A stretch of DNA of 18,296 bases from an uncultured Tabrizicola sp. GTDB taxonomy: Bacteria > Pseudomonadota > Alphaproteobacteria > Rhodobacterales > Rhodobacteraceae. The notes under the pieces are model-generated. The model was not told the origin of the DNA. It did no database searches and saw only the letters and a list, made by a program, of their open reading frames with translations. The first letter of the stretch is position 1; every line of letters begins with the position of its first letter. Below, in pieces: positions 31 to 16,776 of this stretch. Location of the stretch: NCBI GenBank assembly GCA_937858255.1, contig CALLZQ010000207.1, forward strand, positions 1 through 18,296, in the 5' to 3' direction. The position numbers and the translations under genes were made by a program.

Positions 31-1344
31 TCAGCCCTCGGCGGACTCTTGCCGCCACCGGGTGCAAAAGATGTCGCGGATCGCGGCATAGCTGGCGTCA
101 AAACTCTCACGCGCCCGGCTCCAGCCGTCGCGGCCGATGTCGCGGTAATCGGTGCCATAGATCGTGGCGCCCCCGCCGGCGGCAATCAGCGCCGCGAATT
201 CCTGCCGCACCGGCAGCATCGCCGGCCCCAAGGCCGCCTCGATCCGGCTGGCGATCAGCCCCTGCGGCGCCGGCGCCACCCCGGTCAAGAGACAGCGCAT
301 CTCGGGCCAGGCCAGATCGGCGGCGGGCTGGCCAAGGGCGCGGGCGGCCAGCGTTTCGCGCGCCTCGATCGTCTCGAAGGCCCGGTGCAGCAGGCCGAAG
401 AACCGCCCCGTGCCCTCCAGATCGGCCTCGGTCGCGGCCAGCGGCACCAGCAAGAGATCGGCCGCCGCCACCGCCGCCAGCGTCAGGGCGCCGAAACCGG
501 GGGGCGTGTCGATCACCACCAGATCCCAGGGCGCCGCCTCGCCCGGGGCCAGCATCTCGGCCAGCGCCAGCCGCAGCGCCTGCCAGCCCCGCCAGCCGCG
601 CAGCCGCTGTTGCCACTGGGGCATCAGCATCTCGGCCCGGGCCAGATCGAGCCCGGCCGGGATCACCCCCAGCCCGGGCCAGCCCCCCGGACGGATCAGC
701 CCCGCCGGGTCGAGCCCCAGCGCCCGGTCCAGCATCGCATCGAGCGGCACCGGATCCTCGCCCCGCCCGACGCGCTGACGGTTCTCGGCCTGCAACGCCC
801 TTGCCTGCTGGCGGGCAAAGAGCGGCAGGGCAGTTTCCCATTCATCGCCCGCGCTCTGCCCCAGCGCGGCGCTGAGCCGGGCCTGCGGGTCAAGGTCGAT
901 CACCAGGACGCGGTAGCCCTCCAGCCGCGCCGCCAGTGCCATATGCAGGGCCGTCGTCGTCTTGCCGCTGCCCGTCCGGGCGTTGGCAAGGGTCAGGATA
1001 CGGGCGCGGGCCCCCGGCGGGCGATAGGGGGCATAGGCTTTGGCGGCCGATCCGCTGCGGGCGAAATGGGCGCGCAGCATGTCCACTTCGGCCAGGGTGA
1101 ACCAGCGCACGGTGCCGCCGCCCTCGGGCTGGCCCTGCGGCAGATCGGGCCGTGCCGCCAGCACCCGGCGCAGATGGCCCGGCGCCATCGGGATCAGGTA
1201 GCGGGCGATTTCCCAGGTCGAGAACAGCCGGGGCGGCGCGGCCCTGTTCGAGAGATCCCTCCCGCCCGGCAGGGCGCAAAGCCCGGCCAGTCTGGCGGCG
1301 GCGGCACTGTCGAGCCGGATCGGGGGAAGGGGGGCTGGGGGCAT
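31..1344 (-). CDS. parA: ParA-like plasmid partition ATPase with N-terminal HTH
   Basis: A 437-aa ParA/MinD-superfamily ATPase that would drive plasmid partition with a ParB partner. An N-terminal HTH-like region (about 41-92, with FSTWEIARYL and RWFTLAEVDML) matches the DNA-binding part of type Ia ParA proteins. The ATPase core follows: Walker A at 123-130 (RTGSGKTT), Walker A' at 146-154 (VLVIDLDPQ) and Walker B at 274-282 (DLVVIDTPP). The usual deviant Walker A is KGGxGKTT, so here arginine stands at the signature-lysine position and threonine replaces a glycine. It is divergent from repA across the presumed origin. The ATG at 1344 has no good Shine-Dalgarno site; the HTH sets the latest possible start. 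parB is expected downstream, beyond the left edge. The family call is firm, but whether this copy is a fully active partition ATPase is open because of the Walker A change. Confidence 0.9.
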   Translation of the reverse strand: MPPAPLPPIRLDSAAAARLAGLCALPGGRDLSNRAAPPRLFSTWEIARYLIPMAPGHLRRVLAARPDLPQGQPEGGGTVRWFTLAEVDMLRAHFARSGSAAKAYAPYRPPGARARILTLANARTGSGKTTTALHMALAARLEGYRVLVIDLDPQARLSAALGQSAGDEWETALPLFARQQARALQAENRQRVGRGEDPVPLDAMLDRALGLDPAGLIRPGGWPGLGVIPAGLDLARAEMLMPQWQQRLRGWRGWQALRLALAEMLAPGEAAPWDLVVIDTPPGFGALTLAAVAAADLLLVPLAATEADLEGTGRFFGLLHRAFETIEARETLAARALGQPAADLAWPEMRCLLTGVAPAPQGLIASRIEAALGPAMLPVRQEFAALIAAGGGATIYGTDYRDIGRDGWSRARESFDASYAAIRDIFCTRWRQESAEG

Positions 1345-1399
1345 CTGTCGATTCGGGTGGGGCGGTTACGGCGTGGCGTTATTTTCAGGATGTAGCATA

Positions 1400-1428
1400 T
1401 ATACTCAAACATCAATCATTATGTGCAA
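1400..1428 (-). promoter_or_regulatory. Candidate sigma70-type promoter for parA
   Basis: On the minus strand a -35 box TTGCAC (1428-1423) is separated by 17 nt from a -10 box AGTATA (1405-1400). Transcription would start near 1393 and leave a leader of about 50 nt before the parA ATG. The location in an AT-rich island upstream of parA supports it, but the -10 match is only moderate. Confidence 0.4.
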
Positions 1429-1524
1429 CATTAAATCGCAAACCCCTGTTTTTCTTAGCCTATTCCAGGGTATCCGCCGGAGTGCCTTCTTTCAGACTTT
1501 GCGCGGATTTTGCCGCTCTCTGAA

Positions 1525-1546
1525 GTTAATCTGAGTTAATAGATTA
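1525..1546. repeat. Inverted and direct repeat in the AT-rich origin segment
   Basis: TAATCT (1527-1532) and AGATTA (1541-1546) form an inverted repeat with an 8-nt centre. GTTAAT also occurs twice in direct orientation, 10 bp apart (1525 and 1535), i.e. on the same helix face. It could be an operator or part of the melting region. The function is unknown and the arms are short. Confidence 0.4.
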
Positions 1547-1615
1547 GTTACAGAGAACCCACAAAAATCCATCTATTTGAAATAAAACAAGAAAACACGC
1601 CAGGTCTTTCCCTCT

Positions 1616-1640
1616 GCGACTCTGAACCCACGATCAGGCG
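1616..1640 (+). repeat. Iteron copy 1
   Basis: A 25-bp direct repeat whose core is tctgaacccacgatcaggcg (1621-1640). It matches copy 2 at 24 of 25 positions. The 44-bp distance between copies is about four helical turns, as expected for RepA binding sites on one DNA face. It lies upstream of the repA promoter. Confidence 0.7.
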
Positions 1641-1659
1641 ATTCCGTTTCCCCGAAGTT

Positions 1660-1684
1660 GCGACTCTGAACCCACGATCGGGCG
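1660..1684 (+). repeat. Iteron copy 2
   Basis: The second 25-bp copy, core tctgaacccacgatcgggcg (1665-1684), differs from copy 1 at a single base. The identity over 25 bp inside a gene-free region argues for a protein-binding site, most likely for RepA. Confidence 0.7.
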
Positions 1685-1717
1685 CGGCTGCCGGGCAGGC
1701 GGTTTGGCCCGGCGGAC

Positions 1718-1747
1718 TGGACGCGGCTTGGCGCGGCTGTCTATAGT
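1718..1747 (+). promoter_or_regulatory. Candidate repA promoter
   Basis: A -35-like TGGACG (1718-1723) and a good -10 TATAGT (1742-1747) are separated by 18 nt. The start point would fall near 1754, giving a leader of about 107 nt before the preferred repA start at 1861. It lies just downstream of the iterons. Confidence 0.45.
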
Positions 1748-1753
1748 TGCGTA

Positions 1754-1768
1754 ATTGAAACCACGAAC
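1754..1768 (+). promoter_or_regulatory. Degenerate iteron-like element at the repA transcription start
   Basis: attgaaaccacgaac matches 11 of 15 bases of the iteron core tctgaacccacgatc. It starts 89 bp after copy 2, about twice the 44-bp iteron period, and overlaps the predicted repA start point. A weak initiator-binding site there would suit autorepression, as in other iteron plasmids. This is an inference from a partial match. Confidence 0.3.
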
Positions 1769-1860
1769 CTTTCCCCATGGCTTGCAGTGCCTTGCGGGCG
1801 GGGCGACAGGCGCCAGACCGCAGAGCAGATGCCGAAACCGATCATGCCGGAAGTGCTGAC

Positions 1861-2883
1861 ATGACTGTGCCGGGGCCGCAGGGGCGCCCCGGCGCGATGC
1901 CGGCGCTGTTGCCCGAGCGTCATCCGCAGGGCGATTTCTTTCTCTGTGACATTCTCGATGCGCTGCCCAAGGCCGATATGGCCTCGATGGAACATCCGCT
2001 GTTCTCTCTCTCGACCCGGCCCGATCTGCGGGTGCTGCACTATGGCCATAATGGTGTGTCGATCACCGTCACGCCTTCGGTGCGGGGGTTGGCCACGCTG
2101 TTTGACAAGGACATCCTGATCTATTGCATCAGCCAGCTGATGGCGGCGCTGAATGCCGGGCGGGCCATCGGACGCACCCTGCAACTGACGGCGCATGATC
2201 TGTTGGTGGCCACCAACCGCGAGACCAGCGGCGATGGTTATCAGCGGTTGCGCGATGCCTTTGAACGGCTGGCCGGCACCCGCATCACCACCAATATTGC
2301 GACAGGCGGGCGCGAGGTGACCACCGGCTTTGGCCTGATCGAGAGCTGGCAGATCGTGCGGCGCAGCCGGGGCGGGCGGATGGTGCAGGTGCTGGTCACG
2401 CTGTCGGACTGGCTGTACAGCGCGGTCCTGTCCAAGGCGGTGCTGACGCTCAGCCGCGATTATTTCCGCCTGCGCAAACCGCTGGAGCGGCGGATCTACG
2501 AACTGGCGCGCAAACATTGCGGCCATCAGGCGGAATGGCGGATTTCCATCGAGACGCTCTGCCTCAAGTCGGGTTCGGCCAGCCCCCTGCGGGTGTTTCG
2601 CAAGATGATCCGCAATATGGTTGCAAGCGATCATCTGCCTGAGTACAGCCTGACCGAAGAGCCGGGCGACATTCTCTGTGTCAGACGCCGCGATGCGGTG
2701 CTGGTGCCGGGGGACGGGCCGCCGTTACGTCCGGCGACGATCGAGACGGCGCGCGCGCTGATGCCCGGCTGGGATGTCTATGCGCTGACCGCGGAATGGA
2801 CCGCGCTCTGGCAGCGCAGCGGCCGGCCCCGGCTGCGCTCGCCCGATGCGGCCTTCCTCGGCTGGCTGCGCAAGCGCCGCTGA
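1861..2883 (+). CDS. repA: RepA-type plasmid replication initiator
   Basis: A 340-aa initiator of the RPA/RepA family (replication initiator protein A) widespread on Rhodobacteraceae plasmids. It would bind the iterons upstream and open the origin. The family-typical N-terminal block (LLPERHPQGDFFLCDILDA, from about residue 17) is followed by two winged-helix-like regions, about 75-180 and 195-290. The second contains YFRLRKPLERRIYELARKHC. The start at 1861 is chosen because GGAAG (1849-1853) lies 7 nt upstream. An in-frame ATG at 1777 has no ribosome site and would add 28 non-family residues. Iterons, promoter and divergent parA complete the replicon. The next gene begins 19 bp after the stop with no visible terminator, so read-through into the polysaccharide genes is likely. 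Confidence 0.9.
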   Translation: MTVPGPQGRPGAMPALLPERHPQGDFFLCDILDALPKADMASMEHPLFSLSTRPDLRVLHYGHNGVSITVTPSVRGLATLFDKDILIYCISQLMAALNAGRAIGRTLQLTAHDLLVATNRETSGDGYQRLRDAFERLAGTRITTNIATGGREVTTGFGLIESWQIVRRSRGGRMVQVLVTLSDWLYSAVLSKAVLTLSRDYFRLRKPLERRIYELARKHCGHQAEWRISIETLCLKSGSASPLRVFRKMIRNMVASDHLPEYSLTEEPGDILCVRRRDAVLVPGDGPPLRPATIETARALMPGWDVYALTAEWTALWQRSGRPRLRSPDAAFLGWLRKRR

Positions 2884-2902
2884 CAGGCTGGAAGGGAGTG
2901 TC

Positions 2903-5122
2903 ATGACGCGCGAGAGATCCGAGACCGGCAGGCCGATGGGCAGTGCTGAACCCGCGACCGGGCGGCACAGCGGTATTCTCGAGACGCCGCGCGGCTGGCG
3001 CGCCGAGGATTGGCAGGAACAGGGGGCGCTGAGGGCGCTGTTGGCGGCGGGGCCGCTGGCGGCCGCGGATCCGCGCGGCCTGCCGGTCTATCTGGGGTTC
3101 CCCTGGTCGGCCTGGATCGACAGCCTGGCCAGCCCCGAGGCGCTGGAGGCGCCCTTGTTGCGCAGCGCGCTGCGTGCCCAGCCGGCCCGGCGTCCGCGCG
3201 GGGCGGCGGCGGTCACGCTCTGCACCCATCCGCAACTGCCCGCGCATCTGCCCCGGCTGGTCGAGGCGGGGGTGACCGATCTGTTCTGGACCGGCACGAT
3301 GCCGGGCGCGGACCGGCTGCCCGCCGCGCCGCAGATCCGCCTGCATCCCTTTCCGGCGCTGCCCGCGCCCGGCACGCCCGCCCCGGCGGGCGAGGGGCCG
3401 GGGGGGCTCTTTGCCTTTTGCGCCGCAGGCGGCAACCGCCCGGCGGTCTGGGCGGCGCTGGCGGCGGGGCTGATCCCCGTCCTCGATCTGAACGGCCCAC
3501 TTTTGCCGGGTGAGGCCGCGCTCTGGCAGGCGGCGGCGGTGATCCATGACGGCAGCGAGGCGGCGCAGGCCGGGCTGGCGGCGCGGCTTGAGGCACTGGC
3601 GGGCGATGCCGGGGCCATTGCGGCGATGCAGCGCGCCGGGGCGGCGCTGCATCTGGCCTATGGCGCAGCGGACCGGGTGCAGGATCTGCTGCTCTGTCTG
3701 GCCGGGCTGACCCGCCCGGAGGAACGCCCCGAGACCGCCCCTGCCGAGGGGGCGGGCCACAGCCTGCTGGCGCCGCTGATCCGCCGCCTTGCCGGGCGCA
3801 CGGAACTGAGCCGGGCCGAGGCACAACTGGTGCTGCAACAGGCGGGCTGCGACCTTCTGGCGGGCGAGGGCCATGATCTGGTGCTGGCCCCCGGCCCGGC
3901 TTCGGCCGCCGCCTGGCGGCTGATCGGGCTGGCGCGCAACACGCTGGCCGATGACCCGCTGGCCATGACTCGTTTTGACGAGATCCTTGATCTCTTGCGC
4001 AGCCGCGATCTGCTGCCAATGCGTGCGCCGCGGACGGGCGGGCGGGCGGCGGCGGCGCTGCGCCTCTATCTGCTTGGCCCGCGCGGGCAGCACACGCCGC
4101 TGTCCTATGCGCCGTTGCGCCGCCATCTTCAGGGCAAGATCACGCTGGTCGAGCGTGCCGAAGAGGCCGATCTGATCGTCACCGGCTGGAACCGCGATCT
4201 GGAAGACAACCGCGCGATGCTGGCCGGGCTGCGGCAGGCGGGCCGCCGCCCGCGTCTGGTGGTCCTGTCGGAAGAACCGCTCTGGGACAGCCTGTGGAGC
4301 GGCGATCTGGCGGCGCGCGACCGTCTGCTGGATTGTGGCGGCGGGCTGAACCTGCCCTATCGCAGTCTGAACCATGTGAATTCCGCCATCTTCCGCTTTC
4401 AGCATCTGCCGTGGTTCCTCCTCAGCGACGAGCGTTATGCCGCGCGGCAGGCGATGCTGATGGCGGGCTTTGCCGCGCTGACGCCCCGGGCGCTCTTGGC
4501 GCATTGGCAGGCGGCGCCCGTGCAGGCGGCCTTTGTCGCCGAGAACCGCGACAGCGCGGAATATGCCGTGACCTGGCCGGTCGAGGGCGTGGCCGGGCTC
4601 AGCCGCTATCGCAGCCGGGTGGCGGCGCTGACACCGGAAGTGGCAGGGCGCGGCGGCATCTTGCGGCTGGGGCAGGGCTGGCCCGGATCCGGCCCGCGCC
4701 GGCAGGATCTGCCCGACTGGCATCTGGACAAGCTGGCGCGGCTCTATGGCCGGGTGCGCCTCTGCGCCGCCTATGAAAACACCCTGCAATCGCATTACAT
4801 CACCGAAAAACCCTTTGACGCCATGGCTGTCGGGGCGATTCCGGTGGTGGTGGCCGATGCCGGCCACCGGCTCTTGGATCTGATCCGGCCCGAGGCGATG
4901 CTGAACACCTGTTTCTCTGCCCCCGATGTGGCGGCGGCGCGGATTGCGGCCTTTACCCCCGATCTGGTCACCGCCGAAGCCTGGCGTGACAGTGCCCATG
5001 ACCTGCTGGCGCTGCTGCGCGACCCCGCCCTCATCCTAGCCGAGCGTCAGCGGCTGGCCGAGGCCTGCCATGCCGAGCTTGCCGACTATCTCCAGGCCGA
5101 AGAGGTTGCGCCGGCGGCCTGA
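2903..5122 (+). CDS. Two-domain glycosyltransferase with C-terminal GT10 (fucosyltransferase-like) domain
   Basis: A 739-aa cytoplasmic protein. Its C-terminal part carries the donor-binding signature of alpha-1,3-fucosyltransferases (GT10): an ENT...YITEKPFDAMAVGAIPVVV pattern at about residues 625-652, with E625, Y632 and K636 in the expected places. The N-terminal half contains a second, weaker block (FCAAGGNRPAVWAALAAGLI, about 172-191) that resembles the end of a GT-B or GT10 donor domain, so the protein may hold one degenerate and one active transferase. GT10 enzymes are usually 300-450 aa, so this is about twice normal. The start at 2903 has a strong GGAAGGGAG ribosome site (2890-2898); an in-frame ATG at 2936 is less likely. 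No GDP-fucose genes are in the window, so the donor could be another sugar. It probably shares a transcript with repA. Confidence 0.75.
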   Translation: MTRERSETGRPMGSAEPATGRHSGILETPRGWRAEDWQEQGALRALLAAGPLAAADPRGLPVYLGFPWSAWIDSLASPEALEAPLLRSALRAQPARRPRGAAAVTLCTHPQLPAHLPRLVEAGVTDLFWTGTMPGADRLPAAPQIRLHPFPALPAPGTPAPAGEGPGGLFAFCAAGGNRPAVWAALAAGLIPVLDLNGPLLPGEAALWQAAAVIHDGSEAAQAGLAARLEALAGDAGAIAAMQRAGAALHLAYGAADRVQDLLLCLAGLTRPEERPETAPAEGAGHSLLAPLIRRLAGRTELSRAEAQLVLQQAGCDLLAGEGHDLVLAPGPASAAAWRLIGLARNTLADDPLAMTRFDEILDLLRSRDLLPMRAPRTGGRAAAALRLYLLGPRGQHTPLSYAPLRRHLQGKITLVERAEEADLIVTGWNRDLEDNRAMLAGLRQAGRRPRLVVLSEEPLWDSLWSGDLAARDRLLDCGGGLNLPYRSLNHVNSAIFRFQHLPWFLLSDERYAARQAMLMAGFAALTPRALLAHWQAAPVQAAFVAENRDSAEYAVTWPVEGVAGLSRYRSRVAALTPEVAGRGGILRLGQGWPGSGPRRQDLPDWHLDKLARLYGRVRLCAAYENTLQSHYITEKPFDAMAVGAIPVVVADAGHRLLDLIRPEAMLNTCFSAPDVAAARIAAFTPDLVTAEAWRDSAHDLLALLRDPALILAERQRLAEACHAELADYLQAEEVAPAA
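2945..2964 (+). repeat. Iteron-like sequence inside the GT10 gene start
   Basis: gctgaacccgcgaccgggcg matches 17 of 20 bases of the iteron 2 core (1665-1684). It lies 61 bp downstream of the repA stop. It may be a relic or extra RepA site on the other side of repA. It could also be chance, as it reads as ordinary codons (AEPATGR). Confidence 0.3.
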
Positions 5123-5182: not shown

Positions 5183-5842
5183 ATGTCCCAACCACGTCCC
5201 GCCATCAGCATCCTGGTCCTTTGTCGGAATGAGGCAACGTTCATTCGCCGTGCCATTCGTTCTGTCCTTGCCCAGACGATCGACCAGCCGCTGGAGATCA
5301 TCGTGATGGACGATGCCTCAAGCGATGGCAGTGCCGATCTGGCCCGTCAGGAAGTCGAGGCCGCCGGCCGTCCCGGGACCGAGTTTCGGGTGGTCCGTTC
5401 CGAGACCAATCTGGGCGATGGTCTGGCCTTTGTCGCGGCGATCGAGGCGGCGCGGGGGCGGTTCTACCATGTGCTTGATGCCGATGACTTCTGGGTCGAC
5501 CCGGATAAGTTGCGCAAGCAGATGGCCCTGCTCGAAACCCATGGCTCTCTGGCCGGGGTGGGGCACCGTGCCATCCTGCGCGCCGCCGAGGACGGCAGCG
5601 AGAGCTTTCACCCCCAGCAGGATCCGGTAAAGCCGGTGCTTAATCTGGAGGACCTGCTGACCAGCGGGGCCTATTTCCACACCAGCGCCATGCTGTTCCG
5701 CAACAGCTTTTACGATCCGGCCAGCGGCAAGGTGGTGGTGCCTCAGATCCTGCGCGAAGTGACCGGCGATACCATCCGCCTTTTGGTTCATGCCGCAGCG
5801 GGGGGGGATCTATTACCTGCCGCAGACCATGTCGGTCTATGA
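5183..5842 (+). CDS. GT2 family glycosyltransferase, N-terminal part of a frameshifted gene
   Basis: Encodes 219 aa with a GT-A (GT2) domain: an opening strand ISILVLCRNEATFIRRAIRS, nucleotide-binding MDDASSDGS (42-50) and metal-binding DADD (99-102). It would transfer a sugar from a nucleotide donor on the cytoplasmic face. GT2 homology runs up to about residue 206 (LLVHAAAGG), then the frame reads 13 unrelated residues to a stop. The natural continuation (GIYYLPQTMSVYDDHRGGIW) is in the next frame, entered at a run of eight G at 5800-5807. Removing one G would join both parts into about 769 aa. The start is preceded only by a weak GAAAG. The GT2 call is firm; whether this short form is a functional product is unclear. 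Confidence 0.8.
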   Translation: MSQPRPAISILVLCRNEATFIRRAIRSVLAQTIDQPLEIIVMDDASSDGSADLARQEVEAAGRPGTEFRVVRSETNLGDGLAFVAAIEAARGRFYHVLDADDFWVDPDKLRKQMALLETHGSLAGVGHRAILRAAEDGSESFHPQQDPVKPVLNLEDLLTSGAYFHTSAMLFRNSFYDPASGKVVVPQILREVTGDTIRLLVHAAAGGDLLPAADHVGL

Positions 5843-7493
5843 CGATCACCGGGGCGGCATCTGGACCGGGCTTAACTGGCCGGGGCGGCGCAAGCTGTTG
5901 AATCACCTTTATGACCGCCTGTCCGAACATGGCTATCTGAACGGGCTGGGCGAGGCCAGGGCCGCCGAATATCTGGCCGAGCGTCTGGCCGAGATTGCCG
6001 CCTATGCGCCGGCCTCGCTGCGGCCGATCTCGCTCTATCCCGATCAGGTGATGAATGCCCCGCGCAGCCGGGTGACCGAGATCTCGCGGGTCTCGAGCCT
6101 GCTCGACCTTGAGACTCAGCTTTCGGCCCTGACCGCCGCCGATCAGTATGAAGAGGCGCTGCGGCTGGTCTTCCGCTTTCTCAGCGCCGTGGCCTATGAC
6201 CGCAATCTGAGCCGCGCCAGCCGGTCGCGCCGCATCACCAGCCCCGAGATCGACTGGCACTGCGCCCATATCGGTGGGCGGATCGCGGCGGCGCAAAAGA
6301 TCCTGCCGGTGGCCGCCGATCCGGCCGAGGCCGAGGCCGGGCCGGTGGTCCTCCTCGTCTCGGGCATGGCCGAGGATCGCGACGGCATGTGGGAGGCCAC
6401 GCAAGAGGCGATCGAGATCTGGCGCGGTCAGCGCCGGGTGGTGGTGCTGTCGACCGAATTGCTGGCGACCATGCCCGATATTCAGGAGCGGGTCGGCCCC
6501 GAGGTCGAATTGCTGCTGAACACCGATCACACGCTGGTGGACAAGACCGCCTGGCTGATCTGGCATATCACGCGGCTGAAACCCTCGCGCATTCTGGCGC
6601 TGCCGGCGCGCAATGATGTGGTGATCGCCGCCGGGCTGCGGCGCGAACATGCGCCGCGGATCCATCTGATCGCCGCCTATACCACCGGCTATCTGCCGGG
6701 CTGCCACTCCTATGCGCTGGATGGCTATGTGCTGCGCCGGCCCTATGATCTGGCCTGGTTCCACAAGCTGGCGCCGCGGCGCGAGGCGATCCATCTGCCG
6801 CGGCTGTTGCCCGCCGCGGCGGCGCCCGAGCCGCTGCCCGAGGGGACGGGGCTGGTCACCGCCACCGGCGCGCTGGTGCCCGGGCGGTTCGAGGGGCATT
6901 ACGATTTCGGCCTGCATCTGATGGTGCCGGTGCTGCTGAAATCGGGGGCGCATCGCCATATCCATGCCGGTCCCCTGTCCGAGGCGATGCTGAACCGTAT
7001 CCGCAAGGAACTGATCCGGCAGGACATGTCGCCCGAGGCCTTTGTGCATCTGCCCGAAAGCCGCGACATCGGCGCCGATCTGCGTGCGGCGGGGGCGAGC
7101 CTGTTCCTGCAGGGCTTCCCCTGGCCCGAGGCGGGGGCGCTGGTCTCGGCCATGGTGGCGGGGCTGCCGGTGATGGCGCATCAGAACTATCTGCATCCGG
7201 CATTGTCACTGGCCGATCTCTGCCCCGAAGGCACGCCGGTCTGGGCCGATGCCGAGCAACTGGCGGCGCTGATCCGCGGGATCGACGCGCCCTGGATCGC
7301 GGCGCAATCGGCGGCGGTGGCGGCCCATGTCGGCAGCCGCCATTCGGCCGAGGCGCTGCGCGCGACGCTGGGCGAGGGCTTCATGGTGCCGGTCGCGCCC
7401 GGGGCGCTGCCCGATCTGCCGGTGCCCGAAGGCCGGCAGGAATTGCGCCGGCTGATGTCGGAGCTGATGGAGATGACGGTCTTTACCGCCTGA
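5790..7493 (+). CDS. GT-B-like glycosyltransferase, C-terminal part of the frameshifted gene
   Basis: Up to 567 aa. The first residues (IYYLPQTMSVYDDHRGGIW) complete the upstream GT2 domain, including the late Y/H-rich segment typical of these enzymes, so 5790 is not a natural start. Beyond about residue 175 lies a Rossmann-like domain (VVLLVSGMAEDRDGMWEAT). Near 442-470 there is a GT4-like donor segment (FPWPEAGALVSAMVAGLPVM), suggesting a second, GT-B-fold transferase. With the upstream reading frame it forms a likely GT2/GT-B fusion, as found in capsule and O-antigen clusters. No separate ribosome site is visible; if expressed alone it would start poorly, for example at the ATG at 5829. 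It ends just before a strong hairpin facing the convergent kpsT. Confidence 0.7.
   Translation: MPQRGGIYYLPQTMSVYDDHRGGIWTGLNWPGRRKLLNHLYDRLSEHGYLNGLGEARAAEYLAERLAEIAAYAPASLRPISLYPDQVMNAPRSRVTEISRVSSLLDLETQLSALTAADQYEEALRLVFRFLSAVAYDRNLSRASRSRRITSPEIDWHCAHIGGRIAAAQKILPVAADPAEAEAGPVVLLVSGMAEDRDGMWEATQEAIEIWRGQRRVVVLSTELLATMPDIQERVGPEVELLLNTDHTLVDKTAWLIWHITRLKPSRILALPARNDVVIAAGLRREHAPRIHLIAAYTTGYLPGCHSYALDGYVLRRPYDLAWFHKLAPRREAIHLPRLLPAAAAPEPLPEGTGLVTATGALVPGRFEGHYDFGLHLMVPVLLKSGAHRHIHAGPLSEAMLNRIRKELIRQDMSPEAFVHLPESRDIGADLRAAGASLFLQGFPWPEAGALVSAMVAGLPVMAHQNYLHPALSLADLCPEGTPVWADAEQLAALIRGIDAPWIAAQSAAVAAHVGSRHSAEALRATLGEGFMVPVAPGALPDLPVPEGRQELRRLMSELMEMTVFTA
5800..5807 (+). repeat. G8 homopolymer at a reading-frame break
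   Basis: Eight consecutive G are followed by ATC at the exact point where the GT2 homology changes frame. Seven G would restore one long open frame. Possible explanations are slipped-strand phase variation, transcriptional slippage, a fixed mutation, or a base-calling error in a homopolymer. Confidence 0.7.
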
Positions 7494-8271: not shown

Positions 8272-9897
8272 TCAGCGCCGGTCGCGGATGCTGTAGAAGA
8301 TCAGGACCCCGATCGCCCAGGCCATCAACAGGAAGAACCCGGTCAGCCCGATCAGCGTGCCACGCTGGGGATATTCGGATTCCTCGGCCAGAGTCGGGCG
8401 GATATGGGCGGCCAGATAGCGCGACTTGCGCTGCGCCTCGGCCTGGGCTGCGTCAAAGGCCGCCAGCGCCACCCGATAGGCCTGTTCGGCGAATTCGCGG
8501 TCCACGCTCAGCCGCTCGAATTCGGCGACCATGGTGGCATAATCCTCGCCCCCGGGGGCCTGATCGCCCTCATTGAACTTGCGGCGTTCTTCCTCCATGC
8601 GGTTCTTGATCACCTCGATGCGCTGCTCGATCTGGGTGATGCGCGGATCGCCGGCATTGCCGGAACTGCGCAAGAGATCCAGCTCGACATAGCTTTCGGC
8701 CAGTTGCGCCTGAAGGCTGTTGATGATGCCCATCTGGCCCTGAAGGTCGGCCACCGGATCGACCACCCGGGTGCGCATGCGGAAGCTGGTCATCGCCTCG
8801 CGCGCATCTTTCAGCCGGTCGAGCGCGCGTTCCATCTCGATCCGGGCATAGCGGGTCGCATCCTCGCGCGCCTCGGCAGAGAGGGCGTTGATCTTGTCGG
8901 TGCTGTGTTCGAGGATCTTTTCGGCCACCACTGTCGCTTCTTCGCGACTGAAGGCCAGCACCCGCAGCGTCATCAGCCGCGAGCTGGAATCATAGGTGAT
9001 CTTGACCTTGCTCTTCCAGTGATCGACCAGATCCTCGACCGAACCCGAGGGATCGAAGGCAAAGACCGGATCGGCGGGCCAGGCCTTGGCATAGATCGCG
9101 CGCAGGTCGATCTCGGCATCCAGCGCCTCGACCAGTTCCTGACTGTGGATATAGTCGTAAAGGATATCGCTGTCCGATGATCCCCCGCCCGAGAGCCGGG
9201 TGATCCCGCCCAGCAGGTCGAGTGAAGAGGACACTTCCTGCGTGCGCACGGAAAAGCCCACGGTCGAGGCATATTCGTCCTGCGCGATCACCCAGAGATA
9301 GATGGCGCTGGCCAACACGGGCACCAGCACAAGGGCGATAAAGCTGATCATGATGCCGCGATGGCGCGGGCGCACCGTGGCGGCCGTGGCCAGCGGCGGG
9401 CCCTTGGCGGCGGCAGGGGGGGTGGGTGAGGGGGGCACGCCCGGTACGGGAAAGGGATGCGGCTGTGCCGCCGGTTGTGGCTGACCCATGGGCTGACCTG
9501 TCTTTTGTGTCTGTTCCGGCCCGGCCGCAGGCTTGTTTGCCGCCATGGTTCCCGGGGCGGTGCCGCTGCCGGGCCGCGCCGGCGCGCGCTGAAAGCCCGC
9601 CAGCGCGGCCGCCGTGCCGGGACGCAGCGCCGCCGAGGGCGACAGGGTGCCGGCCCGGCGCATCTCGCCCGCCGGTTCGGCGGCGGGGGCGTCGGGGTCT
9701 GGACCGGTTGCCGCGCCGGTCGCGGCGGGCGGGCCCCCGGGGGGTGCTGCGGTGGGGATCATCGTCCCGCTTGCCGGCGCGGGCGGCGCTTCACCCGGAT
9801 CCGGCGCCTCGGGCAGAGAGGCGGCCTCATCCTGCGGCGAAGTGCCCACGGCCTTCAGCACGGGTCTTTGTGTGGATTTTCCCTGAAATTTGGTCAC
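8272..9897 (-). CDS. kpsE: Capsule polysaccharide export inner-membrane protein, KpsE/BexC/CtrB-like, with long Pro-rich N-terminus
   Basis: A 541-aa periplasm-spanning adaptor of group 2-type capsule export (PCP family), linking KpsM/KpsT to an outer-membrane channel. The first 180 residues are a Pro/Ala/Gly-rich, probably disordered cytoplasmic extension. Then come a membrane segment (about 183-205) and a periplasmic region with the family start DEYASTVGFSVRTQ. Long predicted coiled coils follow (about 330-480), then a C-terminal membrane segment (about 514-534) ending IRDRR. E. coli KpsE is about 380 aa, so the core is normal and the extension is extra. The start is GTG at 9897. It is the first gene of the minus-strand kpsE-kpsT pair and divergent from kpsM. 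No convincing promoter was seen in the gap. Confidence 0.88.
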   Translation of the reverse strand: MTKFQGKSTQRPVLKAVGTSPQDEAASLPEAPDPGEAPPAPASGTMIPTAAPPGGPPAATGAATGPDPDAPAAEPAGEMRRAGTLSPSAALRPGTAAALAGFQRAPARPGSGTAPGTMAANKPAAGPEQTQKTGQPMGQPQPAAQPHPFPVPGVPPSPTPPAAAKGPPLATAATVRPRHRGIMISFIALVLVPVLASAIYLWVIAQDEYASTVGFSVRTQEVSSSLDLLGGITRLSGGGSSDSDILYDYIHSQELVEALDAEIDLRAIYAKAWPADPVFAFDPSGSVEDLVDHWKSKVKITYDSSSRLMTLRVLAFSREEATVVAEKILEHSTDKINALSAEAREDATRYARIEMERALDRLKDAREAMTSFRMRTRVVDPVADLQGQMGIINSLQAQLAESYVELDLLRSSGNAGDPRITQIEQRIEVIKNRMEEERRKFNEGDQAPGGEDYATMVAEFERLSVDREFAEQAYRVALAAFDAAQAEAQRKSRYLAAHIRPTLAEESEYPQRGTLIGLTGFFLLMAWAIGVLIFYSIRDRR

Positions 9898-10008
9898 GAC
9901 GATCCGCGGGACTGAATGTTTTCGGCGTCAATTCACCAGCAGGCTTTTCTTACCGCAGGGCCGGTGCTAGGTCTAGCGCCTGTTTTCCGCAAGCCCCGCG
10001 CAGGCCCG

Positions 10009-10839
10009 ATGCCGCCCTCTGCCCCGCCTCTTTCCGCCGCTGCGCCGCCCCTCGATCAGGACGGGCTGCGCGCCCGGCGTTTTCGCAGCCTGCGCACCAT
10101 CGTGGCGCTGATGCTGCGCGAGATGGCCACCTCTTATGGCCGCTCGCCGGGGGGTTATCTCTGGGCGGTGCTGGAACCGGTGGCGGCGCTGGCGATGTTT
10201 TCCCTGGGCTTTTCGGTGGTGTTCCATGCCCCGCCCATCGGCAACAGCTTTCCGCTGTTCTATGCGACGGGCTTTCTGCCCTTCATGCTGTTCAACGATG
10301 TCGCCAACAAGATGGCGACCTCGGTGAACTTCTCGCGCCCGCTTCTGGCCTATCCGGCGGTGACTTTCCTTGATGCGCTGATCGCGCGGTTTTTGCTGAA
10401 CGTGCTGACCCATCTGATGGTCGCCTATATCGTGTTCTTCGGCATTATCGTGATCTTCGAGGCGCGGGCGGATCTTGACCTGCCGGTGATCCTGCTGGGA
10501 TTTTCGCTGGCGGCTTTCCTTGGCATCGGGATCGGCACGCTGAACTGTTATCTGATGACCGCCTATCCGGTCTGGGAGCGTAGCTGGCAGATCGCCACCC
10601 GGCCGCTGTTCATCATCTCGGGCATCTTCTTCACCTATGACTCGATGCCGCGCTTTGCCCAGGATCTCTTGTGGTACAACCCGCTTTTGCATGTGGTGGG
10701 GGTGACGCGGGCGGGATTCTACGGGGCCTATCGGGCGGATTATATCAGCCTGACGCTGGTCACCGGGGTGGCGAGTGTCACGCTTTTGCTGGGGCTGATG
10801 CTGCTTTGGCGCCATCATCGCAGCCTTCTCGAGGGCTGA
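10009..10839 (+). CDS. kpsM: Polysaccharide ABC exporter permease, KpsM-like (ABC-2)
   Basis: A 276-aa ABC-2 type permease that forms the channel for polysaccharide with KpsT. After a Pro-rich lead, the family motif FRSLRTIVALMLREMATSYG (25-44) and RSPGGYLWAVLEPV (45-58) precede about six membrane segments. The late block ISGIFFTYDSMP...NPLLHVVGVTRAGFY (203-238) is also typical of KpsM. The start at 10009 fits the family length. An in-frame ATG at 9916 would add 31 residues and leave only 18 bp to kpsE. It would put the divergent promoters inside genes, so 10009 is preferred, although neither start has a good ribosome site. The 111-bp gap to kpsE (9898-10008) shows no clear promoter. Confidence 0.9.
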   Translation: MPPSAPPLSAAAPPLDQDGLRARRFRSLRTIVALMLREMATSYGRSPGGYLWAVLEPVAALAMFSLGFSVVFHAPPIGNSFPLFYATGFLPFMLFNDVANKMATSVNFSRPLLAYPAVTFLDALIARFLLNVLTHLMVAYIVFFGIIVIFEARADLDLPVILLGFSLAAFLGIGIGTLNCYLMTAYPVWERSWQIATRPLFIISGIFFTYDSMPRFAQDLLWYNPLLHVVGVTRAGFYGAYRADYISLTLVTGVASVTLLLGLMLLWRHHRSLLEG

Positions 10840-10862
10840 GCCGCCGCGCTGCTGATCGGAGG

Positions 10863-10891
10863 CTGACATCCTCTGTCCAAGCGGCTATAGG
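10863..10891 (+). promoter_or_regulatory. Candidate sigma70 promoter for the coiled-coil / sugar synthesis block
   Basis: CTGACA (10863-10868) and TATAGG (10886-10891) are separated by exactly 17 nt. The start point near 10898 would give a leader of about 100 nt before the ATG at 11001. It is the best promoter match in the window and could drive the coiled-coil, ugd and rml genes. Confidence 0.5.
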
Positions 10892-11000
10892 ACGACAGGG
10901 GCGTGACGGCTTCTGGATCGGATTTGATGATTTTTCACATGTTCACAAGGCTGCTGTCCGTACCGGACCTGAGAAAAGAAGAAGAACGAGACCTTCCCTG

Positions 11001-12671
11001 ATGACGGATGGACCAACGCCCGCCCCCTTGCCCCTGATCCTGTGCCTGCCCGCGCCCGAGGCGGTTCCCGCCGCGGCGGCGCTGCTGCCCGCGGGGCAGC
11101 CTGTGGCCGATCTGGCGGCGGCCGAGGCGGGGCTGGCCGCGATGCCGGGGGCACGGCTGGTTCTGATCTGTCCGGCCCCGGCGGTCTGGGTGGCACAATC
11201 GCTGGCGGCGGGGGCGGCGCCGGCCGGCGCGGTCGCCGCGTGGCGGCAGGGGCTGCGGCCGGTGATGGCCTTGCTGCGGACGCGGCGGCGGCAGGTCCGG
11301 CTGGTCTTTGCCGGGGCGCTGGAGGTCGATCCGGCGCCGGTGGCCGAGGTGTTGGGGCTGTCCCTTGCCGGGGATAGGGCGGCAGGCGGCGTTGCCCCTG
11401 CCGATCCGGTGCTGGTGATGATCGCCCGTGATACGCTGGCCCGCGATGTGGCGGCGCAGGCGCTGGCCGATGAATTGGCCGCCAGTGCCCTGTTGACAGG
11501 GGCCGGCGACGCCCCCGATCCCGAACAGGCCCTGATGGCCTATGATGCGCGGCGCGCGGCGCAGAGGCAGGCTGAGACCGAGGCGGCCACGGCCCGTACC
11601 GCCCTGACCGCCGCCGAGGCGCGTCATGAGTCAGAGGCGCGGCTCTTGCACAATCAGATCCGTCTGGCCGATGAGGCCGCAGCCACAGCCCAGGCCGCCC
11701 TGACCAAGGCGCAAGCGCGCCTCTCGGATGCCGAGGGGATCCGCGACAGCCTGCAGGCCGAGGTCGGGTTGCTGCGCGAGCAGATCCGCGCGGATAGTGA
11801 GATGATGGCCGGTCTGGAGACCGCCCTGTCGGAGGCCAAGGGCGCGCATGACAATCTGCAGGCCGAGGCCGGGTTACTGCGCGAGCAGATCCGCGCGGAT
11901 GCCGAGGTGGTGGCCGGTCTGGAAACCGCCCTGTCCGAGCTAAAGAACATACGCAGCGCCCAGCAGGCCGAGATCAAGCTGTTGCGCGAACAGATCCGGT
12001 CCCGCAGCGAGACCGCTACCGGTCTCGAGACGGCTTTGTCCGAGGCGAAAGCGGACCGTGGCGCCCTGCAGGCCGAGATCGGGCTGCTGCGCGAACAGAT
12101 CCATGCTGACAGCGAGACCGCCGGCGGTCTGGAGGCCGCCCTGTCCGAGGCAAAGGCGGACCGCGGCGCCCTTCAGGCCGAGATCAGGCTGCTGCGCGAA
12201 CAGATCCGCGCTGACATCGACGTACAATCCCGGCTTGAGGCCGTGCTCAGGGCCAGCCGCCTTGAGACCCGCGAGGCGCGGGGGCAGGCCGAGGCGGAAT
12301 TCAGCCAGATGATCGGGCAATTGCGCGAACAGGTGTTCCAGACCGGGCAGGCGCTGGCCGGCCATCACAGCCAGCTCGAGGCCTTGCAGGCCGAGCGGGC
12401 CGATCTGATGTCGCAGATCGAACAGGTCGAGGGCGCGCGCGAAGAGCTTGAGGGCTATTATGACCGGGCCCGGCAGTTCTCGGGCCGGATCGAGGCGCTG
12501 ACCGGCGATATCGGCCGGTTGCAGGCCGAGGCCGAGGCGGCCCGGCAGGCGCTGGATGACCGCACCCGGCAGGCCGAATTCCTTGAGGCCGAGATCGGCC
12601 GCATCCACCGCTCGCGCAGCTACCGGCTGACCGAGCCCCTGCGCAAGATCCGCAGCAAGACGCGGAAATAG
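11001..12671 (+). CDS. Coiled-coil protein with 35-residue tandem repeats, function unknown
   Basis: Encodes 556 aa with no signal peptide or membrane segment, so probably cytoplasmic. The N-terminal ~180 residues look globular (alternating strands and helices such as LILCLPAPEA and GARLVLICPAP) and are not recognised. Residues about 185-530 form a long Ala/Glu/Leu/Arg-rich coiled coil. Residues 251-425 are five 35-residue repeats with the core LQAEIGLLREQIRADSE. The C-terminus ends with SRSYRLTEPLRKIRSK, a tail often seen on coiled coils attached to surface-glycan transferases and methyltransferases. The start at 11001 has only a weak upstream GAG. It sits between kpsM and ugd, so a role in polysaccharide assembly, export or length control is inferred. 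It could also be a scaffold for the glycosyltransferases. Confidence 0.8.
   Translation: MTDGPTPAPLPLILCLPAPEAVPAAAALLPAGQPVADLAAAEAGLAAMPGARLVLICPAPAVWVAQSLAAGAAPAGAVAAWRQGLRPVMALLRTRRRQVRLVFAGALEVDPAPVAEVLGLSLAGDRAAGGVAPADPVLVMIARDTLARDVAAQALADELAASALLTGAGDAPDPEQALMAYDARRAAQRQAETEAATARTALTAAEARHESEARLLHNQIRLADEAAATAQAALTKAQARLSDAEGIRDSLQAEVGLLREQIRADSEMMAGLETALSEAKGAHDNLQAEAGLLREQIRADAEVVAGLETALSELKNIRSAQQAEIKLLREQIRSRSETATGLETALSEAKADRGALQAEIGLLREQIHADSETAGGLEAALSEAKADRGALQAEIRLLREQIRADIDVQSRLEAVLRASRLETREARGQAEAEFSQMIGQLREQVFQTGQALAGHHSQLEALQAERADLMSQIEQVEGAREELEGYYDRARQFSGRIEALTGDIGRLQAEAEAARQALDDRTRQAEFLEAEIGRIHRSRSYRLTEPLRKIRSKTRK
11751..12275 (+). repeat. Five tandem 105-bp repeats in the coiled-coil gene
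   Basis: Units begin at 11751, 11856, 11961, 12066 and 12171, each with the codons for (L/Q)QAE and LLREQI. The period of 105 bp is 35 codons, i.e. exactly five heptads, so adding or losing a unit keeps both the frame and the coiled-coil phase. Units 3-5 are most alike around their junctions, and the last unit decays in its second half. A looser related block (SEARLLHNQIR) lies 42 residues before unit 1. Confidence 0.9.
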
Positions 12672-12737
12672 GCCAGAGGATCACCACCCAGAGAGGGCCG
12701 GATGCCGCAACAGCAAGGGTCAGAGAGCGGATCGAAA

Positions 12738-13904
12738 ATGAAGATCATGGTGGCGGGTCTGGGCTATGTCGGCCTGTCGATGGCGGTTCTGCTGGCGCAG
12801 CGCCATTCGGTTCGGGCGCTGGATATCGACCCGGGCCGGGTGGCGATGCTGGGGGCCGGCAAATCGCCGATCGAAGATGCCGAGATCACTGCCCGGCTGG
12901 CGCAGGGCGGGCTTGACCTGACCGCGACCACCGAGCCGGCCGAGGCGATGGCCGGGGCGGAACTGGTCGTCATCTGTACCCCCACCTCTTATGACCCGCG
13001 CAGCAACCGCTTTGACACCACCTCGGTCGAAGAGGTGGCCGAGGCGGCGCTGACCCTGGCCCCGCGCGCGCATATCGTCATCAAATCCACCATTCCCGTC
13101 GGCTTTACCGAGGCGCTGAACGCCCGGCTGGGCACCGACCGCATCCTGTTCTCGCCGGAATTCCTGCGCGAGGGGCGGGCACTTCATGACAACCTGCATC
13201 CTTCGCGCATCGTGGTCGGCGGGCGGGGCGATGCGGCCGAACAATTTGCCGGGCTGCTGAAAGAGGCCTCGCTCGACCCCGGGACCGCGGTCCTGCTGAC
13301 CGGCCCGCGCGAGGCCGAGGCGATCAAGCTCTTTGCCAATACCTATCTGGCGATGCGGGTTGCCTTCTTCAACGAACTCGACAGCTATGCGCTGGCCCAT
13401 GGCATCGACAGCCGCCAGATCATTCAGGGCGTCGGCCTCGATCCGCGCATCGGCAGCCATTACAACAACCCCTCTTTCGGCTATGGCGGCTATTGCCTGC
13501 CCAAGGATACCAAGCAGCTTCTGGCCAATTACGATGCGGTGCCGCAGAACCTGATCCGCGCCATCGTCGAGGCCAATTCGACCCGCAAGGATTTCATCGC
13601 CGAGCGCATTCTGGAACGGCGCCCGCGCCGGGTGGGGATCTACCGGCTGGTGATGAAGGCGGGGTCGGACAATTTCCGCGACAGCGCCATTCAGGGCATC
13701 ATGAAGCGGGTCAAGGCCAAGGGCATCCCGGTCACGGTGTTCGAGCCGCAACTGGCCGGCGATCACTTCTTCAACTCGCCGGTCGAGCGCGATCTGGCGC
13801 GGTTCAAGGCCGAATGCGATGTGATCATCGCCAACCGCCGCGCCCCGGAACTGGCCGATGTCGAGGCCAAGATCTTTACCCGCGATATTTTCGGCGCGGA
13901 TTGA
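12738..13904 (+). CDS. ugd: UDP-glucose 6-dehydrogenase
   Basis: A 388-aa enzyme that oxidises UDP-glucose to UDP-glucuronate with two NAD+, supplying glucuronic acid for capsule or exopolysaccharide. The NAD-binding GLGYVG lies near residues 7-12. The region [19 protein letters not shown] is conserved. The catalytic cysteine C253 is in [14 protein letters not shown]. The C-terminal UDP-binding domain is complete. The length equals E. coli Ugd when the ATG at 12738 is used; AGCGGA is upstream. An in-frame ATG at 12702 has a better GAGAGGG site and would add 12 residues. It follows the coiled-coil gene by 66 bp and precedes rmlB by 72 bp, probably in one transcription unit. Confidence 0.95.
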
Positions 13905-13976: not shown

Positions 13977-15026
13977 ATGAAACTTCTGGTGACGGGCGGG
14001 GCGGGGTTCATCGGCTCGGCCGTGGTGCGGCAGGCGATCCGCGACGGCCACAGTGTCGTCAATCTGGATGCGCTGACCTATGCCGCCTGTCTGGAAAACG
14101 TGGCCTCGGTGGCCGATGCCCCGGGCTATGTCTTTGAACAGGCCGATATCCGCGACCGCGCCGCGCTGGACCGGATTTTTGCCGCCCATGACCCCGATGC
14201 GGTGATGCATCTGGCCGCCGAAAGCCATGTCGACCGTTCCATCGACGGGCCGGGCGATTTCGTCGAGACCAATATCACCGGCACCTACAACATGCTCGAG
14301 GCCGCGCGCGCCAATTGGACGCGCAGGGGCAAACCTGCGGATTTCCGCTTTCACCATATCTCGACCGATGAGGTCTTTGGCAGCCTGCCCGCCGATCCGG
14401 CGGTGAAATTCACCGAAACCACCCCCTATGATCCGCGCAGCCCCTATTCGGCCTCCAAGGCGGCCAGTGACCATCTGGTGCGCGCCTGGCATGAGACCTA
14501 TGGCCTGCCGGTGGTCCTGACCAATTGCTCGAACAATTACGGGCCCTATCACTTTCCCGAAAAGCTGATCCCGGTGATCATCCTCAATGCGCTGGCCGGC
14601 AAGCCGCTGCCGATCTATGGCGACGGGTCGAACATCCGCGACTGGCTCTATGTCGAGGATCATGCCGATGCGCTGTTGCTGGTGGTGCAAAAGGGGCAGG
14701 TGGGGCGCAGCTACAATATCGGCGGCGAGAATGAGCGGACCAATCTGGAGCTGGTGAAAACGCTTTGCGCCATTCTGGACCGGCAGCGGCCCAAGGCGGC
14801 CGGGTCCTATGCCGATCAGATCACCTTTGTCACCGACCGCCCCGGCCATGATGCGCGCTATGCGATTGACCCTGCCCGCATCCGCGCCGAACTGGGCTGG
14901 CGGCCATCGGTGACGGTCGAAGAGGGGCTGGCGCGCACCGTCGCCTGGTATCTGGACAATGAGGCCTGGTGGCGCCCGCTTCAGGCCCGCCATGGTGTCG
15001 GCCAGCGGCTGGGGGTCAAGGCATGA
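13977..15026 (+). CDS. rmlB: dTDP-glucose 4,6-dehydratase
   Basis: A 349-aa short-chain dehydrogenase/reductase catalysing the second step of dTDP-L-rhamnose synthesis (dTDP-glucose to dTDP-4-keto-6-deoxyglucose). It shows the NAD-binding TGGAGFIG (6-13), the catalytic T129-D130-E131 triad in ISTDEVFG, and YSASK (Y156, K160). Sugar-binding [17 protein letters not shown] is also present. A GAGGAA ribosome site precedes the ATG. Its stop overlaps the rmlD start (ATGA), implying translational coupling. The length is normal (E. coli RmlB 361 aa). Confidence 0.96.
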
Positions 15027-15874
15027 GCCTTCTGGTCTTTGGCACCTCGGGGCAATTGGCCTGCGAATTGCGCCGCGCGGCGCCAGAGGCGATCTATCTG
15101 GGCCGGGCCGAGGCCGATCTGTCCGACCCCGCCGCCTGCGCGGCGGCGATCAGGGCGCACCGCCCCGAGGCGGTGATCAATGCCGCCGCCTGGACCGCCG
15201 TGGACAAGGCGGAAACCGAAGAGGCCGCGGCAACCGTGATCAATGGCGCGGCCCCCGGCGCCATGGCCCGGGCCTGTGCCGATCTGGGCATTCCGCTGGT
15301 GCATGTCTCGACCGATTACGTCTTTGACGGCGCGGGCACAGCCGCCTTTGCGCCGGAGGCCCCCACCGCGCCGCTGGGCGCCTATGGCCGGTCCAAGCTG
15401 GCCGGCGAGGTGGCGATCCGCGCCGCGGGCGGCCCCCATGCGATCCTGCGCACCTCTTGGGTGTTTTCTGCCCATGGCGCGAATTTCCTGAAAACCATGC
15501 TGCGGCTGGGGCGTGAGCGCGCGCATCTGAACGTCGTCGCCGATCAGATCGGCGGCCCCACCCCGGCGCGCGATCTGGCCGCCGCCTGCCTGCGCATTGC
15601 CGCCGCGCTGACCGCCGATCCGGGCAAGGCCGGCACCTATCATTTCGCCGGCGCCCCCGATGTCTCCTGGGCGGATTTTGCCCGGGCGATCATGGATCAG
15701 GCCGGTCTGGCCTGCCGGATCGAGGATATTCCGACCAGCGCCTATCCCACCCCGGCGCGGCGCCCGGCCAACAGCCGGATGGATTGTACCAGCCTTTCAA
15801 CCTTTGGCCTTTCCCGGCCCGACTGGCGCCCCGGCGTCCGCGCGGCCCTTCAGGAACTGGGAGCGATTTCATGA
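15023..15874 (+). CDS. rmlD: dTDP-4-dehydrorhamnose reductase
   Basis: A 283-aa NAD(P)H-dependent reductase catalysing the last step of dTDP-L-rhamnose synthesis. Motifs are FGTSGQLA (6-13), STDYVFDG (96-103), the catalytic pair Y121/K125 in YGRSK, and the C-terminal RPANSRMDC, typical of RmlD. The ATG overlaps the rmlB stop and fixes the start, although the frame is open further upstream. Its own stop overlaps the rmlA ATG. It needs the product of RmlC, whose gene is not in the window. Confidence 0.95.
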
Positions 15875-16776
15875 CCAAGACCACCGCCTCGGGGCGCAAG
15901 GGCATCATTCTGGCCGGCGGCTCGGGCACACGGCTCTATCCGATCACCATCGGCCTGTCGAAACAGCTTTTGCCGGTCTACGACAAGCCGATGATCTATT
16001 ACCCGCTCTCGGTGCTGATGCTGGCCGGCATCCGCGAGATTGCCATCATCACCACCCCGCAGGATCAGGATCAGTTCCGCCGCCTGTTGGGCGATGGCCG
16101 CCAGTGGGGCCTGAGCTTTACCTTCATCACCCAGCCCTCGCCCGACGGGCTGGCGCAGGCCTATCTTCTGGCCGAGGATTTCCTGGCCGGGGCGCCTTCG
16201 GCCATGGTGCTGGGCGACAACATCTTTTTCGGGCAGGGCCTGACCCGGATGCTGGCGGCGGCCGATGCGCAGGATACGGGCGGCACGGTCTTTGGCTATC
16301 AGGTCTCGGATCCCGAACGCTATGGCGTGGTGGGGTTCAATGAGGGCGGGCAGGTGGTCTCGATCATCGAGAAGCCGGTGAAACCCGCCTCGAACTATGC
16401 CGTGACCGGGCTCTATTTCCTTGACGGGCGCGCGCCCGAGCGGGCGCGGCAGGTCACGCCCTCGGCCCGGGGCGAGCTGGAGATCACCGACCTCCTGGAA
16501 AGCCATCTGGGCGGGGGGGGATTGCAGGGTCATCGCATGCGCCGCGGGTATGCCTGGCTGGATACCGGCACCCATTCCAGCCTGCTCGATGCCGGCAATT
16601 TCGTCCGCACGCTGGAAAAGCGGCAGGGCTTGCAGGTCGGCTGCCCCGAAGAGATCGCCTATGAAAACGGCTGGCTGGGCCGGGCGGAACTGGAGCGGCT
16701 GGCGGCGCAATATGCCAAGAACGATTACGGGCGCTATCTGGCGGGGTTGCTGGCGCAGGGCCGGGCGGGCGAGTGA
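15871..16776 (+). CDS. rmlA: Glucose-1-phosphate thymidylyltransferase
   Basis: A 301-aa nucleotidyltransferase making dTDP-glucose from dTTP and glucose-1-phosphate, the first and feedback-controlled step toward dTDP-rhamnose. It shows GGSGTRLYP (16-24), [17 protein letters not shown] (31-47), GDNIFFG, IIEKP and [10 protein letters not shown]. The start at 15871 has GGGAG (15859-15863) 7 nt upstream and overlaps the rmlD stop. A G8 run at 16513-16520 encodes part of GGGG (214-217) without breaking the frame. The gene order B-D-A differs from the E. coli B-D-A-C only by the missing C. Confidence 0.96.

Follow-up and report, generated by a model that had tools for sequence, protein, structure and literature searches.

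Which role does a long coiled-coil protein built of tandem units play in a cluster that exports a polysaccharide through an ATP-binding cassette (ABC) transporter? The question is raised by a stretch of 18,296 nucleotides (nt) from an uncultured Tabrizicola sp. (Rhodobacteraceae; assembly GCA_937858255.1, contig CALLZQ010000207.1), called here the window, in which an open reading frame (ORF) of 556 amino acids (aa) lies between kpsM and ugd. A first-pass annotation had rightly placed it there, in an ABC-exporter cluster with kpsM-, kpsT- and kpsE-like genes, and had proposed that it may act as a molecular ruler of polysaccharide chains. The rod, its repeat and its variable length agree with a ruler; that no terminating enzyme is recognised does not, and a scaffold with modular length fits better. 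We consider it probable that the window protein is a distant relative of KfiB of Escherichia coli K5 that works in the cytoplasm, probably without catalytic activity, as a scaffold of the machinery for a capsule-type, ABC-exported polysaccharide, with a coil whose length varies in phase.

A rod made of 35-residue units

Tandem Repeats Finder reports 4.5 copies of period 105 at 11750-12220 (score 448), and a second repeat finder gives four copies of 185 nt spaced by exactly 105 nt between 11724 and 12223. Phased on the motif LLREQI, the protein shows five units of exactly 35 aa each, the last one partial. Units 1-4 are 66-83% identical to each other at the amino acid level, and the identity of unit 5 to the others falls to 29-37%, with the motif retained. 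The five in-frame repeats described at first are thus four full units and a partial one, whereas the array itself stands: at a 35-aa period it scores 438, and none of 40 shuffles that kept the heptad register exceeded 72. The units also consist of whole heptads that keep the phase of the coil, as had been claimed. In residues 183-430, which contain no proline, hydrophobicity peaks at a period of 3.50 residues with a power of 13.4, far above the 99th percentile of 500 shuffles (6.6). A coiled coil rises by about 0.15 nm per residue, which gives about 5.2 nm per unit, close to the 5 nm originally estimated.

Among the five units, the codons for the L, L and E of the motif vary only synonymously and those for R, Q and I are unchanged, and third codon positions differ between units while the motif residues stay. 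Residues E359, L363 and the nearby R364 are invariant or nearly so across 18 relatives. The strict pattern LLR[ED]QIR occurs one to four times per protein in the 12 close-group relatives that are complete or nearly so, and a looser pattern matches six times in the window protein.

The rod separates a head from a basic tail (Table 1). In the structural model the head has a sulfotransferase fold, that of PF13469 and its kin; it differs from these enzymes in being shorter, in lacking the P-loop that binds 3'-phosphoadenosine 5'-phosphosulfate (PAPS) and in having no PF13469 match. Our own P-loop regular expression is absent from 47 of 48 heads, and its sole match (L062) lies away from strand 1. 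WbdD and glycosyltransferase folds do not appear among the 50 best matches to the head fold, which excludes nothing. Against Pfam and NCBIfam the window protein gave only coiled-coil matches below the cut-offs, with no kinase and no methyltransferase, in line with the first reading of the sequence; a cytoskeletal, SMC or crescentin relative was rejected, such sub-cut-off coil matches being all that was found. Family searches with nine heads at E up to 5 returned a single chance-level match (0.076), and the head profile found nothing relevant among PDB sequences (best E 0.26). The basic tail likely contacts the membrane or a partner. Two other ORFs of 985 and 1180 aa (L055:15500-18454 and L069:8788-12327) join an MptE-like domain and a coil to the SxSWRxTxPLR tail of the window-protein family, and a GT2 protein (L137) ends in the same way; this tail seems to be a module shared by proteins of glycan clusters.

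KfiB and the length of the rod

To our knowledge, KfiB has been known for more than two decades and still has no agreed role. K5 kfiB is called a putative sulfotransferase gene and highly polymorphic (PMC13171606); its product is described as a scaffold required for membrane localisation of the polymerase KfiC (PMC4366286). In another study KfiB was purified after being named as a candidate transition transferase (PMC11666461). A review has it stabilise KfiA-KfiC and aid processivity and uniform chain length, interacting with KpsM and KpsT and not taking part directly in polymerisation (PMC12834895). RefSeq names it hypothetical protein, DUF8374 or kfiB protein, and hmmscan of KfiB against the Pfam copy used gave no DUF8374 match.

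Pairwise identity between KfiB and the window protein is not significant, and KfiB alone matches the family profile weakly. The heads of KfiB and of a protein from genome G564 align at 81 bits, and the G564 protein matches the family profile at E 1e-6. A KfiB-side profile, made of KfiB, the G564 protein and four sulfotransferase-like proteins, matches the family head profile with 91.5% probability and a score of 47.1, the best of 30 column-shuffled controls reaching 12.6; the link is partly transitive, since the G564 protein sits in the KfiB-side profile. Three of the four sulfotransferase-like proteins were scanned, themselves or through a near twin, and PF13469 was found in L146, L147 (below cut-off) and L149. 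The bridging proteins found by the KfiB profile match PF13469 and carry HRSGTS. L148, a gammaproteobacterium-side or other-class protein, has head, coil and tail without a P-loop; it scores 45.6 bits against the head profile and reaches 95% with the KfiB-side profile. The window protein is not an orphan, its head being related by profile to that of KfiB.

The likeness extends beyond the head. The product of kfiB in strain Nissle 1917 (NZ_CP022686; P0021) likewise consists of head, coil and basic tail; both coils carry a tandem repeat of whole heptads, 28 aa or four heptads in KfiB; both genes belong to a KpsMT-type capsule locus that includes a UDP-glucose dehydrogenase gene; and both tails are basic (net charge +6 in KfiB, +8 in the window protein), with different sequences. 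KfiB differs in its larger head and in a hydrophobic element duplicated 61 aa apart in its tail (residues 454-548), the second copy of which weakly matches an NCBIfam family of Campylobacter capsule transferases (20 bits, for a cut-off of 600). By analogy, the window protein may share KfiB's role in localising a KfiC-type polymerase and in contacting KpsM and KpsT. In another Nissle 1917 assembly (NZ_CP007799.1, about 3427483-3430007), unlike in NZ_CP022686, kpsS directly adjoins kpsT and kfiABCD is missing, probably by assembly collapse.

Relatives of the window protein (P0002-P0020) came from searches of 5.8 billion proteins, and two of them, from the same genus, are labelled Pseudotabrizicola. 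Members of the close group align well at the head and towards the C-terminus, but not in between. The most telling is P0002 (646 aa), which differs at no more than four of 102 N-terminal residues and at none of 135 C-terminal ones, with a different, longer middle between them; it could be a chimera because it comes from one short contig. Szabonella alba has the whole cluster in the same order, at 63-88% identity, with a coil protein of 398 aa that aligns at both ends only (45-48%).

Comparison of relatives shows that the number of repeats is not fixed and that rods vary by units keeping the phase of the coil. The best internal tandem period outscores all 40 of the protein's own shuffles in 30 of 51 proteins (P0015, P0018 and P0019 were scanned whole, X being read as A); as these proteins are related, they are not 30 independent events. 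Modulo 7, the period is 0 in 14 of them, 4 in 12, 1 in three and 3 in one, and 29 of the 30 can be built from heptads only or from heptads plus one or two hendecads, a count that covers proteins with a repeat above shuffles, the other 21 standing outside it. These classes have no null of their own, and any coil favours such periods; hence they show phase-keeping, not function. From the DPVL motif to LEGY the distance ranges from 105 to 462 aa (11 proteins), and there the idea that lengths differ by multiples of seven fails (remainders 5, 0, 2, 0, 1, 5, 1, 6, 0, 5 and 4 in the close group). From LEGY to the tail motif it is 55 aa in nine of 12 relatives and 48 aa, one heptad less, in three. Phase is kept only by the repeat periods and this C-terminal segment. 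The rod of one relative (L041, G117:C2, ORF 9599-11668) carries four units of 147 nt, or seven heptads, identical at every base; this array is a recent expansion, and it may contain more units than the assembly shows, should repeats have been collapsed there.

The clearest length series is in E. coli, where kfiB is present in 270 of 5,426 complete genomes. In 60 of the 270, spread over the ranking, it spans 1688-1690 nt in 48 and 1605-1607 nt in seven; the remainder are three partial spans that belong to 1773-nt genes, one of 1681 nt and one 178-nt fragment. Copy number, read directly in eight genes, is one in ABU 83972, AVS0967, 21220 and cS51a (534 aa), two in Nissle (562 aa; both copies identical over 84 nt) and three in AHB7, EH01-18-04-A and PCP06238 (590 aa). 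The sequence on either side of the units (1110 + 411 nt) is the same in ABU 83972, Nissle and AHB7, and the other five genes differ there at one to five positions; the reading frame is intact in all eight. Hence, rod length could be related to polymer size in existing strains. Nothing linking KfiB to these Rhodobacteraceae proteins or giving a kfiB repeat count was found in the literature searched; yet the E. coli repeat may already be in print, since kfiB variation is stated as known, with a preprint cited for it.

Scaffold, drift, ruler or docking rod

How might such a protein work? In the scaffold that we favour, the C-terminal basic segment and the adjacent conserved coil would dock the protein at the inner membrane or at the transporter or polymerase, the heptad coil would oligomerise and hold the head away from the docked base, and the head, a sulfotransferase fold minus its P-loop, would bind a partner enzyme or the growing glycan. 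The coil would grow and shrink in frame, by units of whole heptads or of heptads and hendecads, and stay unbroken as its reach and its number of LLR[ED]QIR motifs change. Coil length may then affect polymer length. One might even speculate, against the odds, that it is a genetic dial by which polymer length or spacing is tuned, and that for some ABC-exported capsules at least this dial is the chain-length factor that has been missing. If so, the dial would span plasmids of Rhodobacteraceae and E. coli K5, and the kfiB alleles with one, two and three units would form a natural length series. Coiled-coil accessory proteins of ABC-dependent polysaccharide assembly are a known kind; the variant with a sulfotransferase-type head and a unit-built rod, and how widely it is spread, appear to be new. 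With these results KfiB joins a larger family of coil proteins with such heads, in which rods lengthen and shorten by steps that keep phase.

Coil length might instead drift neutrally, with in-phase tandem units that come and go because coils tolerate them. This is possible, though we lean away from it. In-phase periods are what a coil permits, and the wide scatter of DPVL-to-LEGY distances is as drift would have it. But the units of the window protein have diverged at third positions with their motif residues kept, and the ends of the protein are conserved, two observations that, alone, leave drift in length possible.

In a ruler of the WbdD type, the coil sets the distance between head and polymerase, the chain stops or is exported on reaching the head, and an added unit yields a longer polymer. 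Variation by phase-keeping units, with one, two or three in near-identical kfiB genes, is what this would require of the coil. Yet at 379 Da and about 1 nm per disaccharide, heparosan of 40-118 kDa is about 100-300 nm long, several times any KfiB coil, and a simple stretch ruler hence misfits K5. The layout is that of WbdD (E. coli O9a), WbbB and the Klebsiella O4/O7 proteins, with an N-terminal module, an extended coil and a C-terminal membrane or recruitment region (PMC11231755, PMC5082667). KfiB is reported to make chain length more uniform, and a table gives 39.6-118 kDa for kfiABCD strains and about 5-150 kDa for kfiAC, in different studies (PMC12834895). A 2025 review states that no chain-length factor has been identified for ABC-dependent capsules, and raises the question of unregulated length or a factor not yet discovered (PMC12220298). 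However, WbdD can act as a ruler because its coil carries a terminating enzyme at the far end; in the window protein no terminator is recognised in the head, whose P-loop is gone, and, unlike WbdD-type terminators, it has no kinase, methyltransferase or known transferase. The exporter differs too, being of the capsule KpsMTE type, and no carbohydrate-binding extension is matched in the KpsT of the window. Membership of the WbdD group was rejected, with no terminating enzyme in Pfam or NCBIfam; the 19 PDB sequences matched at E up to 1 include no WbdD chain. Putative methyltransferases of E. coli group 3 capsules, likened here by description and not by sequence, likewise have a strain-variable coil in an ABC-dependent cluster, with a methyltransferase head unlike the window protein, and this variation is not expected to be critical (PMC13171606). 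Altogether we find the ruler doubtful.

Somewhat less plausible still is a multivalent docking rod, in which LLR[ED]QIR binds a glycosyltransferase or KpsT and the number of units sets valency, not distance. The codon conservation of the motif, the near-invariant E359, L363 and R364 and the motif counts given above would suit it. But the L and I of the motif double as core positions of the coil, the long-rod proteins P0007 (513 aa) and P0012 (452 aa) have a single copy, and the 28-aa unit of KfiB lacks the motif.

A head with enzymatic activity of a novel type (e.g. a chain-starting or chain-ending transferase), with the coil only as its tether, is distinctly unlikely, given the missing P-loop and the failed family searches, even with its conserved W and R patch, the purification of KfiB as a candidate transferase and the precedent of an unrecognised coil-bearing terminator in Klebsiella O4 (PMC11231755).

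Gene neighbourhood and spread

Table 1. Features of the window discussed in the text
Feature	Position	Strand	Remarks
kpsT-like ABC ATPase, 218 aa	7600..8256	-	carbohydrate-binding extension not matched
kpsE-like	8272..9897	-	BexC/CtrB/KpsE family, below NCBIfam cut-off
kpsM-like ABC permease	9916..10839	+	
Whole ORF, 556 aa	11001..12671	+	head, coil and basic tail, KfiB-like; ATG at 11001, stop ending at 12671
N-terminal head, aa 1-186	11001..11558	+	predicted sulfotransferase-like fold without PAPS P-loop; conserved W81 and R93/R96/R97 patch
Coiled-coil rod, about aa 183-482	11547..12446	+	borders approximate; 3.50-residue period; LEGY anchor at aa 483
105-bp tandem array	11724..12223	+	LLREQI-phased units from 11769, 11874, 11979, 12084 and 12189 (fifth partial)
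Conserved C-terminal coil segment, 55 aa	12447..12611	+	LEGYYD to before SRSYR, from the alignment
Basic tail with SRSYRLTEPLRKIR	12612..12668	+	last 22 aa, net charge +8
ugd, UDP-glucose dehydrogenase	12702..13904	+	

Of 394 Rhodobacteraceae genomes, 31 match the head profile. Among 385 genomes sampled across the class, G564 is the only further match beyond the source genome, with a tail-only match in G622; this count is a lower bound, since the initial scoring stopped at four candidates per genome. Genome-level co-occurrence with KpsE was set aside as uninformative, 365 of the 394 genomes being positive, and distance on the same contig was used for that reason. Among 36 family genes with flanks, kpsE or kpsM lies within 30 kb in 22 and within 10 kb in eight, for a chance expectation of roughly 3% by simple arithmetic; the window itself and three of 39 head places in which no ORF was found (G345:C19, G345:C20 and G350:C31) are outside this set. 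On plasmid p5 of Gemmobacter fulvus, WP_215507036.1 is a family member, and WP_120352592.1 of Sulfitobacter sp. D7 is a weaker match (tblastn of plasmids with P0010, E 3e-3); both are annotated 'hypothetical protein'. The window protein itself, used as tblastn query against plasmids, gave no match at 1e-5. A phage origin was rejected after one viral_contigs scan, with 25 pattern matches and no relative.

The source genome is a draft, 83% complete in 875 contigs, of which the window is one. The left end of the window (31-2883) carries a ParA-like gene and an RPA-family replication initiator beside the polysaccharide cluster, which includes rmlB, rmlD, rmlA and glycosyltransferase genes further along. 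Because of these two genes the window looks like a plasmid of the Rhodobacteraceae RepA type, as this arrangement suggests; plasmids of such kind in this group are known to carry rhamnose genes. No rmlC was seen in the window next to rmlB, rmlD and rmlA (13977-16776), and a strong rmlC is on contig C697 of the genome. A GT2-type gene is read as two overlapping frames (5183-5842 and 5790-7493, within 5183-7493), both matched by a single 777-aa ORF in S. alba; the split is a frameshift or a draft-assembly error. An ORF of 758 aa (2846-5122), which has a counterpart in S. alba, ends in a borderline match to GT10 fucosyltransferases (24.0 bits, cut-off 23.9). Elsewhere in the source genome are a second kpsE-like gene on C541 (L134) and, on C633 (L133), a KpsC-type protein with two Capsule_synth parts.
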